A DNA stretch of 64,000 nucleotides, from NCBI RefSeq assembly GCF_000160455.2, contig NZ_ACJX03000001.1:124001-188000 (forward strand), given 5' to 3'. Both the position numbers and the translations under genes were made by a program. Under the pieces are notes generated by a model. That model did not search any database. It was not told the DNA's origin and saw nothing but the letters and a program-made list of their open reading frames with translations. This DNA comes from Acetomicrobium hydrogeniformans ATCC BAA-1850 (GTDB lineage Bacteria > Synergistota > Synergistia > Synergistales > Acetomicrobiaceae). Positions 1,515 through 58,182 of the stretch are shown here, piece by piece; positions within the stretch are counted from its first letter, which is position 1, and each line of letters starts with the position of its first letter.

Positions 1515-3155
1515 TTACTTTAATTCCACGATGATTTCTTGCAATTTCTCCATAGCTTCAGAGGGCAGCTTATCGAAACCGCCCTTTTCGGTTTCTTTTT
1601 CCCTTACGAACTTAATCCTATCCTCCAACCGCTCGACGAAGTGTTTTCTATAGGATTTGTCGTCAAAGTCAGGTGAAAAACCATCTATGGGCATGAAATG
1701 AAGATCTTTAAAAGGCTTCCACGAGACGAATTCGGCCTCATCTTCGGCGATGTCCTCTATAATTTTTAAAGTAAGGTCAGGACCTATCTTTTTTCCCATA
1801 AAATCTCCAGTGTTCAGGATGAAACAATCTATACCGTCAGACAAAAGCTCTTTGAAACCCAGATAATCTACGCTCAACGGATATACCCTGAAGGGATTGG
1901 CGTAGGGCTCAAAGACCAAGGCATTTGGGTCGATCTCAGGCAAAAGCCTCTCTGCCGTGGTCCTCTTGGTAGCGAGGGTAGCCCCCAGGACCGAACCCAA
2001 AGCGGGATCGGTCACCTTTATTACAGGAGGCATGGTCGGATCCCTCATGAGCCAGAAGATCGCCTTGATGGGGTCATCCATTCTGTCTACCCTGTTAGGC
2101 GACCACAGCCTGGACCTGATTGCCCTTCCGTTGCCATTTCTCACGTCCTCCATGACGGCGTAAAGCTTTCCGTCACTTCCCCTTGTCGCGCCATTATTTT
2201 GAAGAGTCAGGATATTTTTGCTGGCCTCGCTGTTCATTGTGTAATCTTGCGTCTTATCGAAGTAAGTAGGCTCTAGAGCTATTGAGTATTTTTTGTCGCT
2301 ACGGATGATGAAGGCATCGTCGTGGAGGATTGTTACTTCGTACCTCCCGCCGTGTTTTGCATGGGTGATGGTAGATTTTCCCGAACCCGAAAGGCCGAAG
2401 ACCGCCATGACGAAATTTTTGCCATTGGGCAGGCGAAGCCGTTTTAAGCCGCCATGGCAGGAAATAAAGCCGTTTCTCGTTGCTATGCCCCAAGCCAAAG
2501 TCAAGGTACCCTTCTTAAATTCGCCGAAATACCGCATGCCCAAAATGGCAGCACAATTATGTAACGGATCAAATAGAGATAAGCCTGGCGGGTGATCGGG
2601 ATGTCGCCAATCGGGATCCGAGAAGATGAAAATATCGCCTTCTGTATAAGCTTTGGAATTGCGATACATCTTGCTGTACTCGTCGTTTAAATGCTGAAAA
2701 TTAAGCAGCCAGTTATACAAAATGTTTTCGTGACCCTCCGGGATCAGAAGATGAGCCTTGACCATGAAATCCGGATCCAATCCTACAACGGCTTCGACGT
2801 GATATAACTTTCGATAACGGGTACAGTATATTGCCTCGCGAAGCTTTTTGGCGTATTCATCTACGTCGACATTGGGCTCCCCTATAATCCTTCTGGCTGC
2901 GGCACAACGACCGACCACTGCCCCGTCGTTAAAAAGAAGCACATTGGACCCCTGAGGCAAACCGAGACTTTCAGTCTCGCACATCGGCATACCCGTAAGC
3001 TCCACCGTTCCCGGACTATTCTTCGCTAGCTGGTAAGCATCTCTCACAGAAGCAACGGGCATCACATTATTGCCGTAAAATGCAGTTTCGACGGTCGCCC
3101 TGATCCTGGATCGCAACCCTTCCAAACCGTCCTGAAAATCCCCAATAGTAGCCAT
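1515..3155 (-). CDS. pckA: Phosphoenolpyruvate carboxykinase (ATP type)
   Basis: Interconverts oxaloacetate and phosphoenolpyruvate, with CO2 and a nucleotide. In anaerobes it can run in either direction. The P-loop GLSGSGKST lies at residues 254-262 and the second metal/nucleotide motif LHDDAF about 20 residues later. The ATP-type family (PF01293) fits best; 546 residues is slightly above the usual 520-540. The ATG at 3155 has the purine-rich RBS GAGAGGAGAGAG. It is convergent with rlmN and probably a single-gene unit, since 250 bases separate it from the next operon. Confidence 0.9.
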   Translation of the reverse strand: MATIGDFQDGLEGLRSRIRATVETAFYGNNVMPVASVRDAYQLAKNSPGTVELTGMPMCETESLGLPQGSNVLLFNDGAVVGRCAAARRIIGEPNVDVDEYAKKLREAIYCTRYRKLYHVEAVVGLDPDFMVKAHLLIPEGHENILYNWLLNFQHLNDEYSKMYRNSKAYTEGDIFIFSDPDWRHPDHPPGLSLFDPLHNCAAILGMRYFGEFKKGTLTLAWGIATRNGFISCHGGLKRLRLPNGKNFVMAVFGLSGSGKSTITHAKHGGRYEVTILHDDAFIIRSDKKYSIALEPTYFDKTQDYTMNSEASKNILTLQNNGATRGSDGKLYAVMEDVRNGNGRAIRSRLWSPNRVDRMDDPIKAIFWLMRDPTMPPVIKVTDPALGSVLGATLATKRTTAERLLPEIDPNALVFEPYANPFRVYPLSVDYLGFKELLSDGIDCFILNTGDFMGKKIGPDLTLKIIEDIAEDEAEFVSWKPFKDLHFMPIDGFSPDFDDKSYRKHFVERLEDRIKFVREKETEKGGFDKLPSEAMEKLQEIIVELK

Positions 3156-3340
3156 CCATCTCTCTCCTCTCTCATTAAATGGCTACGTAAATATTAGTAT
3201 ATTAACTTAATTTTTTCTATGGTGACACTCAAGAGATATGGTGTAACACTAATTAAGCCTTCGTACAACCGTCGCTATATTATGCAAACTCGACATTGTT
3301 ATACTTATTTAATTAATGTAATTAAAAGCTTTAAAATACA

Positions 3341-3373
3341 GCCCCGCAAGCCTTCATAAAATGCCTGCGGGGC
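3341..3373 (-). terminator. Hairpin downstream of the pdxA2 operon
   Basis: GCCCCGCA at 3341-3348 pairs with TGCGGGGC at 3366-3373, and the stem continues after one mismatch with GC/GC. On the minus strand the stem is followed by TGTATTTTAAAG, an imperfect T tract. It probably ends transcription of the five-gene operon above it. The rest of 3156-3406 is AT-rich with no gene seen. Confidence 0.65.
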
Positions 3374-56190: not shown

Positions 56191-57084
56191 ATGACCCTAC
56201 AACAGCTAAAGACCTTTCTCGCCGTTTGCGAGGAAATGTCCATAACGCAGGCTGCCTTCAAACTTTTTATCACTCAGTCGGCCGTAAGCCAGCAAATAAA
56301 GGCTCTGGAGGAAGAATTCGATATTAAACTTTTCGAAAAAAGGGGCAGGCGTCTTTGCATTACAGCGGAGGGCAAGATTTTCCGGGATAGCGCCAAGGAG
56401 ATCGTTGAAAATGCAGAGCTTATAGTAGAAAAGCTCAAGGCCAGCAAAAGCCTGGAGGTGGGGAAATTAAACATGGCCAGCACCCATCATTTGGCACAGT
56501 ATCTTCTAATGAATCCTCTCTTGGAATTTCATAAAAGCTATCCAAAAATAGACCTGTCCCTCCACACTCTCGATGCTAGCGAGATAAAATCCGCCGTCGA
56601 ATCCAAAACAGTTGACATTGGCTTCATGCCCGACGGAGCTGCCGTCTTTTCTCCTCACTTAAGAATTACTAAAATATACGAAGATCGCATGGCCTTAATA
56701 GCCTGGCCAGGACATCCGTGGCGAGAAGAGGAAAAAATAAAGCCATCGCAATTGTCAGGGGAGCCCCTTGTATTCGCATCTACGCCCTCAAGCATTAACG
56801 AGATAGCCCTCGCTTTTTTGAAACGACATCACATACATATCGATACCGTTATTGACGTCGGTAACATCGATCTTCTAAAGGAAGCGGTGAGACATCGTGT
56901 GGGAGTGGCACTGACGAGCAAGCTCGCGGTCCGGGAAGACATCAGCCAGGGAAGCCTTATCGAGCTTCCCCTTTCGGGAATCGATGAATTGAGCTTTAAT
57001 TTCCTCATGCTAACCCACAAAGAAGAAGAACCGAGCTATCCCTCCTGGGCCTTTCAAAAAATCTTGAAGGGATATCTGCCCTAA
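56191..57084 (+). CDS. LysR-family transcriptional regulator
   Basis: 297-residue LysR protein. The winged helix begins in the usual way, MTLQQLKTFLAVCEEMSITQAAFKLFITQSAVSQQI split over residues 1-36, and is followed by a periplasmic-binding-like effector domain. The start is ATG 56191: the predicted transcription start is near 56155, so the ATG at 56155 would lie at the very 5' end, while AGGGAG at 56175-56180 serves the later one. Divergent from the YgeY paralogue, it is the likely regulator of the purine block; a purine intermediate as signal is inference. Confidence 0.85.
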   Translation: MTLQQLKTFLAVCEEMSITQAAFKLFITQSAVSQQIKALEEEFDIKLFEKRGRRLCITAEGKIFRDSAKEIVENAELIVEKLKASKSLEVGKLNMASTHHLAQYLLMNPLLEFHKSYPKIDLSLHTLDASEIKSAVESKTVDIGFMPDGAAVFSPHLRITKIYEDRMALIAWPGHPWREEEKIKPSQLSGEPLVFASTPSSINEIALAFLKRHHIHIDTVIDVGNIDLLKEAVRHRVGVALTSKLAVREDISQGSLIELPLSGIDELSFNFLMLTHKEEEPSYPSWAFQKILKGYLP

Positions 57085-57092
57085 TTAAAAAT

Positions 57093-57101
57093 TGTTATAA
57101 T
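57093..57101 (+). promoter_or_regulatory. Extended -10 promoter of the candidate selenoprotein gene
   Basis: TGTTATAAT is an extended -10 element just after the lysR stop; no good -35 is visible. Transcription would begin near 57108, about 50 bases before ATG 57157. Confidence 0.5.
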
Positions 57102-57129
57102 TATGCCGTAAACATGGTTATTACAACCC

Positions 57130-57151
57130 TTTACCGCCACGTGGAGGTAAA
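57130..57151 (+). promoter_or_regulatory. 22-bp near-perfect palindrome overlapping the RBS
   Basis: Arms TTTACC and GGTAAA flank a central CCACGTGG, with one mismatch pair, so 20 of 22 positions are symmetric. The right half contains the GGAGGT ribosome site of the gene at 57157. It could be a DNA operator, or an RNA hairpin hiding the ribosome site. Confidence 0.6.
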
Positions 57152-57156
57152 ATTAG

Positions 57157-57528
57157 ATGAGGAAACACAAGATAAAGATATTCATGGAAAAACCCTACAC
57201 GGCAACATGCTGAACATCTTACCAGTATCGGGACGAGGAAATGCAAACCTTCTCCCGAAGGGCCGACCGTGAGTCGGTAGGAGCTTTGCTGCGAAATCTG
57301 CACTTTAATTTTAATGATGCCTTTGAGGTAGATATCATCGACCCGCGATGTTTGTTGTGGTTTTTCGATTTCATCAAATACAAAGTCAGAACAACTGAAC
57401 CCACCTGGGTTTTGGACGGAAAAGTCATATACAGAGGCATCCCCGCGTGGGAGGAACTCGAAAAAATACTGCGCGATACCTGCCAAGACCTATTTAAGGA
57501 TACAGCTGTAAAGGGACCTTCGAGCTAA
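57157..57528 (+). CDS. Candidate selenoprotein, small thioredoxin-like (in-frame TGA)
   Basis: GGAGGT at 57143-57148 lies eight bases before ATG 57157. The frame reads MRKHKIKIFMEKPYTATC, then TGA at 57211-57213 (codon 19), then runs on without a break for 104 codons to TAA. If TGA is read as selenocysteine, the product is a 123-residue protein with an adjacent Cys18-Sec19 pair at the end of the first strand, where thioredoxin folds keep their redox site. A strand FEVDIIDPR, a helix, the cis-Pro region TEPTWVLDG, the strand VIYRGI and a final helix WEELEKIL follow in thioredoxin order. A SECIS-like hairpin lies at 57228-57258. The alternative is a gene broken by a nonsense mutation, or a shorter product from ATG 57241, which would lack the redox site. 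Confidence 0.6.
57228..57258 (+). promoter_or_regulatory. SECIS-like hairpin after the in-frame TGA
   Basis: TCGGGA at 57228-57233 pairs with TCCCGA at 57253-57258. Above one unpaired C, GAGG (57235-57238) pairs with CTTC (57249-57252) including one G-U. The apical loop begins about 26 bases after the TGA, within the 16-37 base window of bacterial SECIS elements. If the top two pairs open, the loop begins with GG as in known cases. Confidence 0.5.
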
Positions 57529-57660
57529 TTCGCGAAACCAAACAGCCTGGGCAAGAACAAAGTTCAGTGTAATCTTCCTGATATTTTGATATACTCAAAT
57601 CGCTGTTACAAAGAATTTTTAATCCATAAACCACTTCTATCACCGTTAGGAGGAATGGCG
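57529..57660. other. Intergenic region with the purE promoter
   Basis: An extended -10 TGATATACT lies at about 57589-57597; the -35 region is weak. No other feature seen. Confidence 0.45.
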
Positions 57661-58182
57661 ATGCAGAAACCGCTAATAGGCATAGTGATGGGGTCGAACT
57701 CAGATGCAGAGCGCCTAAAGGGCGCTTTTGAAGTATTGAAGGAATTGGAAGTTCCTTTTGAAGTCACGATAGCTTCAGCTCACAGGACTCCAAAGGACGT
57801 GGCAAACTACGCTAAAAAGGCAAAGGATCGGGGTATCAAGGTAATTATAGCCGCAGCCGGGCTTTCGGCTGCTTTGCCGGGTGTTTTGGCCGCCCACACG
57901 ACGCTTCCCGTCATAGGCATCCCGTTGGAAGTCGGCCCATTAAAGGGTATGGACGCCCTGCTCGCCATGGCTCAAATGCCTCCGGGAATACCAGTCGCGA
58001 CCGTGGGAATAGGACAGGCCATCAATGCTGCCCTCCTTGCGGTTCAAATTCTTTCCCTTCAAGACCCCTCATGTAGCAAAAAGACCGCCCAATACCGGGA
58101 GAAGGCATCAAAGAAAGTATCGACGGCACGAGACGCTTTGACCGAGCTTCCTAAAGCTCCGCCAGAGGCATTTTTAGACTAA
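57661..58182 (+). CDS. purE: N5-CAIR mutase (class I PurE)
   Basis: 173 residues. Moves the carboxyl group of N5-CAIR to make CAIR, the substrate of the PurC part of the fusion at 21219. Signature GIVMGSNSDAERLKGA, then ASAHRTPKDV, AAAGLSAALPGVLAAHT and MPPGIPVATVGIG. ATG 57661 lies seven bases after AGGAGG (57648-57653); ATG 57655 is too close. It is apart from the other pur genes, and purK is not in the window. Confidence 0.95.
   Translation: MQKPLIGIVMGSNSDAERLKGAFEVLKELEVPFEVTIASAHRTPKDVANYAKKAKDRGIKVIIAAAGLSAALPGVLAAHTTLPVIGIPLEVGPLKGMDALLAMAQMPPGIPVATVGIGQAINAALLAVQILSLQDPSCSKKTAQYREKASKKVSTARDALTELPKAPPEAFLD

Follow-up and report, generated by a model that had tools for sequence, protein, structure and literature searches.

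A thioredoxin-like selenoprotein family in Synergistota with selenocysteine near a movable partner cysteine

The window, a 64,000-nucleotide stretch of DNA from Acetomicrobium hydrogeniformans ATCC BAA-1850, contains a short gene in which an in-frame TGA at codon 19 is almost certainly read as selenocysteine (Sec). The Sec assignment is strong because homologues have TGA or a Cys codon at the aligned position and the Sec machinery is present in the same genome. The proposed explanation as a whole, a 123-residue thioredoxin-fold selenoprotein in which Sec19 acts as described below, is given a probability of about 0.9. The selenoprotein family to which the gene belongs has not been described before, although its general kind is known; the PF13192 pair of Brachyspira is nearest to it in kind.

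Reading frame and codon 19 in the homologues

The frame at 57157-57528 consists of an ATG, 18 codons, the TGA, 104 sense codons and a TAA ending at position 57528. Direct reading bears out this layout as the initial annotation had described it, including the ribosome site and the TGC-TGA pair. The predicted product of 123 residues is MRKHKIKIFMEKPYTATCUTSYQYRDEEMQTFSRRADRESVGALLRNLHFNFNDAFEVDIIDPRCLLWFFDFIKYKVRTTEPTWVLDGKVIYRGIPAWEELEKILRDTCQDLFKDTAVKGPSS, with U for Sec. The features of the gene are as follows.

57143-57147, + strand: ribosome-binding site GGAGG, 9 nt 5' of the ATG at 57157; identical in the homologous locus L002
57157-57528, + strand: putative selenoprotein gene, 123 aa; homologues in 64 of 188 Synergistota genomes, read through the TGA
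57208-57210, + strand: Cys18 (TGC, codon 18), candidate resolving Cys adjoining Sec19; the CU pair is found in the window and in many relatives
57211-57213, + strand: TGA codon 19, almost certainly read as Sec; TGA, TGC, TGT or TTT among 69 sequences, and the sole invariant column of alignment A5
57228-57258, + strand: SECIS-like hairpin of 10 bp with one C-C mismatch and its loop at 57239-57247; z of -3.04 against synonymous recodings
57349-57351, + strand: Cys65 of a DPRC motif, found in 23 of the 36 Sec forms and absent from all other forms
57367-57471, + strand: residues 71-105, predicted C-terminal half of a thioredoxin-like fold (Pfam Thioredoxin_3, 18.1 bits; cut-off 24.8)

The promoter of its own that had been proposed for the gene was not found in a sigma-70 scan of 56900-57750. 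The palindrome proposed with it, CCACGTGG, is present at 57137-57144, but is merely 8 bp long and overlaps the ribosome site. An Rfam search of 57000-57700 found nothing relevant.

A first search of 61 relatives gave a match in 29, and a profile search gave homologues in 64 of 188 Synergistota genomes; these 64 represent 33 of 63 genera. Codon 19 was counted in 69 distinct near-full-length sequences, with loci read through the TGA. The codon aligned with the TGA of the window is TGA in 36, TGC in 25, TGT in 7 and TTT in one. The initial annotation had expected Cys or TGA at this codon in the relatives of a selenoprotein, and Trp, Ser or Gly in those of a nonsense mutant; 68 of the 69 sequences have TGA or Cys and none has Trp, Ser or Gly. 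Column 19 is the only invariant column of the 61-row alignment A5, and Sec and Cys have been exchanged at least four times on the maximum-likelihood tree. Two of the signs by which a bacterial selenoprotein is tested are found here, namely an in-frame TGA inside a conserved coding frame and Cys at the same position in homologues (32 of 69). Dozens of genomes conserve the frame on both sides of the TGA, and for nearly all TGA-type pairs compared, the sequence 3' of the TGA has a dN well under its dS (0.029 vs 0.387 and 0.126 vs 1.14 in two examples). The closest pair, the window and G002, has three synonymous and three non-synonymous differences and is too similar to be telling.

The TGA could also be an ordinary stop or a nonsense mutation, which would leave a pseudogene or only a 95-aa product from the ATG at 57241. 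A deletion does truncate the gene in the relatives G066 and G003, and the ATG that follows the TGA has a purine-rich leader. However, the TGA stands at exactly the same codon in 36 distinct sequences from many genera, opposite Cys; coding selection continues 3' of it; Lys7 and Glu11, which precede it, are conserved along with the rest of the protein; and Met29, the downstream start, is Leu, Arg or Lys elsewhere. A stop at codon 19 is therefore very improbable. Decoding of the TGA as another residue, such as Trp by recoding or suppression, is harder still to credit. In keeping with Trp, the homologue L010 carries a second TGA where Trp84 is otherwise conserved. Column 19, however, is never Trp in the homologues, and it is Cys in nearly half of them. 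The genome has a complete Sec system, and several homologues end in TGA, which means that TGA still acts as a stop in these genomes. Selenocysteine at codon 19 was favored by each of the checks from the initial annotation that were run. Standard annotation would treat the in-frame TGA of at least 36 distinct genes in the family as a stop; therefore, databases probably lack the protein or contain a truncated version of it.

Selenocysteine machinery and the hairpin after the TGA

A search for selA, selB, selC and selD had been proposed, and all four are present in the genome carrying the window. The selA gene (574 bits) adjoins selB (374 bits), the tRNA-Sec scores 79.7 bits with the anticodon TCA (UCA), and selD has its own in-frame TGA within TSGUAAKLGP. 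Across the phylum, a selA match was found in 97 of 116 genomes with a completeness of 90% or more and a contamination of 5% or less. The intact TGA form occurs in 27 genomes at least 90% complete, one of which (G083, 8% contamination) lies outside the 116-genome set, and selA is over the cut-off in 27 of 27. A TGA form is absent from all 19 good genomes that lack selA (Fisher p 0.006 for co-occurrence, a guide only, since the genomes are related). TGA forms without a full selA are found only in incomplete genomes, e.g. G002 (80%) and G021 (86%), and a tRNA-Sec is present in G002.

The hairpin pairs UCGGGA-C-GAGG with CCUU-C-UCCCGA at 57228-57258. It starts at +15 after the TGA, and in the minimum-energy fold its 9-nt loop, AAAUGCAAA, begins at +26 (25 nt from the TGA), exactly the placement that the initial annotation had given. 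Compared with dinucleotide shuffles, the fold is mildly unusual (z of -1.5 over 66 nt and -2.0 over 48 nt). In synonymous recodings the protein sequence was fixed and codons were drawn from the window's own usage; of 300 recodings, a single one matched the window hairpin in stability (z -3.04, rank 0.003). Since the hairpin is extreme among these recodings, its stability is not explained by the encoded protein. The mean z against recodings is -1.05 for TGA forms (n=36) and -0.59 for Cys forms (n=33), with a one-sided p of 0.036. Because the Cys forms are also somewhat stable, RNA stability alone separates the two groups poorly.

The bSECIS model asks for an upper stem, a distance of 16-37 nt between TGA and loop, and a minimum free energy of -7.5 kcal/mol or lower, with G at one of the first two positions of the apical loop (PMC13188914). 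The window hairpin has the stem, a spacing of 25 nt and an energy of -13.6 kcal/mol; its loop lacks the G, and the loops of several relatives start with GG. A subset of selenoprotein genes fails the bSECIS model (PMC13188914), so the loop-G rule is not strictly defining. Pair covariation in the hairpin within the window's clade is not above that of shuffles. Hairpin occupancy is 82% in register versus 48-64% when slid, a difference not used as proof. The RNA evidence is supportive and is strongest for the window gene, and the Sec conclusion does not need it.

Fold, active center and proposed function

The family is predicted to have a thioredoxin-like fold. AlphaFold2 modeling of A5 gave a mean pLDDT of 86.5 and a pTM of 0.76, with the order strand, short beta hairpin containing residue 19, helices, strand, helix, two strands and helix. 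The model puts residue 19 in the short beta hairpin and not at the start of a helix. The top Foldseek matches in the PDB are thioredoxins and the thioredoxin-fold domains of calsequestrin, which are weak matches (TM about 0.5-0.6, best E 1.6e-3). No NCBIfam or Pfam model claims the family. Its best matches are Thioredoxin_3 (PF13192; 18.1 bits, cut-off 24.8), TIGR00411 and TIGR00412 (13.2 bits, cut-off 62), all far below the curated cut-offs, and the proteins are about 35 residues longer than these domain models. A PDB sequence search also gave a weak match of a 39-residue stretch to RNA-free RNase P, which covers one helix-strand segment only and was attributed to chance. A kinship with Bacillus YuzD/DUF1462 was considered and has no support in Pfam.

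The initial annotation had placed a redox center at the TGA. This holds insofar as Sec19 is the sole invariant residue, but there is no CxxC-type center and the neighboring Cys is variable. The motifs around Sec are CU (in the window and many relatives), CGU, UC and UGC/UAC, with once no Cys nearby, and the position of the partner Cys ranges from -2 to +2. Of the 36 Sec forms, 35 have a Cys no more than two residues from Sec, and 16 of 32 Cys forms have one that close to Cys19 (counts not corrected for phylogeny); in 11 of the 32, Cys19 is the protein's only Cys. We infer that a single chalcogen nucleophile is obligatory and that a resolving Cys close by is optional, though nearly always present in the Sec forms. 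Since many sulfur forms have a single Cys, one chalcogen with an external thiol or reductase would be enough for the basic reaction, and the odds on a one-chalcogen mechanism are about even. Cys65 of the DPRC motif is seen in Sec forms only (23/36 vs 0/33), with Asn, Ser or another residue in all Cys forms. It is possibly a second selenylsulfide partner; a link between Cys65 and Sec is not claimed, as it shows two independent contrasts only on supported branches and is inseparable from phylogeny.

In the proposed mechanism, SelB and Sec-tRNA(UCA), aided by the hairpin 15 nt downstream, would decode the TGA at codon 19 as Sec, a step with strong comparative support. Sec19, or Cys19 in the sulfur forms, would lie in the loop that follows the first beta strand, where it may serve as the single obligatory nucleophile. 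In the Sec forms, a Cys one or two residues away (Cys18 here) could close a selenylsulfide. The Cys-Sec pair in the GCUG end of thioredoxin reductase also consists of adjacent residues and can form a selenylsulfide. The protein would most likely cycle between selenol and selenylsulfide while reducing a peroxide, a disulfide or another oxidized substrate.

A redox role is probable, and two other functions have to be weighed against the proposed one. Sec19 and its neighboring Cys might instead be a ligand for soft metals or metalloids (Hg, As, Cu). Such a role has been proposed for several families of the CU type. CU motifs occur in SaoC, HgcA, MbdU and KCU-star (PMC13188914), a single Cys suffices in many Cys forms, and the weak NCBIfam relatives include the MTH895/ArsE group. 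However, no metal-resistance or metal-transport genes were seen by eye beside the gene in the lineages read, and many members lack a Cys adjoining Sec or have it at another position; a metal ligand is therefore unlikely. It is rather unlikely, too, that the protein is a PF13192-type disulfide reductase like Brachyspira Sec.1 and Sec.2, with a two-residue center of the dithiol type. The best family matches named above are of this type, PF13192 selenoproteins with CxU and UxC motifs are known, and some members here have UxC or CGU. Against it, every match is far under the curated cut-offs, the proteins exceed the length of the domain models, there is no fixed second Cys, and 11 Cys forms have just one Cys. 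Returning to the proposed single nucleophile, the lone invariant Sec/Cys, the freely relocating partner Cys and the thioredoxin-like fold may define a mechanistically distinct class of redoxins, a tentative view that falls a little short of even odds. If true, the class would be distinct both from CxxC thioredoxins and from known Sec redoxins.

Known selenoproteins, neighborhood and paralogues

Brachyspira Sec.1 and Sec.2 also have a small thioredoxin fold and an N-terminal Cys/Sec, and a SECIS-like hairpin follows closely on their TGA (PMC5330540). Compared with their description, the present family has a CU motif with a movable partner Cys, is longer and occurs in another phylum. SaoT (NF040730), which the initial annotation had cited as an example, is a thioredoxin-like selenoprotein of the same general type, but kinship with it was not upheld. 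Its model has no match here at E up to 10, its motif is UxxC, and no sao transport genes stand beside the loci whose neighbors were read. The thioredoxin-like HUIPC-motif selenoprotein (NF047660) shows weak similarity to 8 of 61 members (best E 0.022), but the E-values are far from significant and the HUIPC motif is absent. KCU-star (NF033934), SaoC (NF040734) and MbdU (NF045648) share with the window protein an adjacent Cys-Sec, which is able to form a selenylsulfide; they have no NCBIfam match in the family, whose members need not have the adjacent Cys and are constant at Sec/Cys19 alone. Other catalogued selenoproteins had no NCBIfam match either.

The 2026 catalogue of prokaryotic selenoproteins contains many thioredoxin-like families (PMC13188914), and Synergistota have already been noted as rich in selenoproteins (PMC5029168, PMC13188914). 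The families of Haft and Tolstoy 2025 were covered by the NCBIfam scan and the table in PMC13188914. The suggestion of an undescribed or lone type stands in that no family model claims the gene and its neighbors vary by lineage, but the family is phylum-wide and not a single oddity. It is an uncatalogued addition to the Synergistota selenoproteome. Searches of viral contigs and plasmids gave no relatives. A scan of the genome collection with a single peptide pattern matched in Synergistota only, which does not by itself establish absence elsewhere; restriction to the phylum is not proven, as the search outside it was thin. The phylum, and sometimes a single genome, contains both Sec and Cys forms, with the partner Cys at several positions; the family therefore offers a natural test set for why Sec is used and how a resolving Cys is acquired.

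As the initial annotation stated, the window gene lies between lysR and purE, beginning 72 bp after the lysR-type gene (both named from translations). In other lineages the neighbors, named by eye, include typA, dapF, pcm, ybaK-like and yqgF-like genes, the gene for ribosomal protein uS9 and other unrelated genes, and no conserved operon or partner gene was found in the lineages read. Since the gene is stand-alone and its neighbors differ by lineage, the context gives no substrate.

A deletion of about 248 bp, matching window positions 57263-57510, is found in L087 (G066:C2:47000-51000, same species) and L026 (G003:C9, same genus). The junction has about 5 bp of shared sequence, and the truncated copies keep the Sec codon with only about 36-40 codons of the frame left. 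The gene is dispensable, because these two close relatives carry a deletion of most of it. G001 and G004, of the same genus, gave no match in the profile search. In L110, also from Acetomicrobium, the alignment with the window breaks between the gene and purE (window 57563-57648 vs L110 8416-11718). In that record purE is about 3.3 kb farther away, and minus-strand genes (the first of 429 aa) occupy the interval; the same minus-strand genes follow the truncated copies in L026 and L087.

Several genomes have more than one copy. The TTT member is one of two tandem paralogues in L097 (1950-2309 and 2489-2836; G164:C78), of which one has the usual GCC center and the other has lost the Cys (MPLFFAF); the latter is the only family member without Cys or Sec at the site. 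L085 (G067:C5) has two Cys-form paralogues close together (1320-1646 and 3031-3357), and G067 also carries the Sec form L059, so that Sec and Cys forms coexist in one cell. The second in-frame TGA of L010 (1492-1830; G012:C2), at the Trp84 codon, may reflect a sequencing error or decay or may encode a second Sec, and G012 holds another copy, L030, with one TGA.
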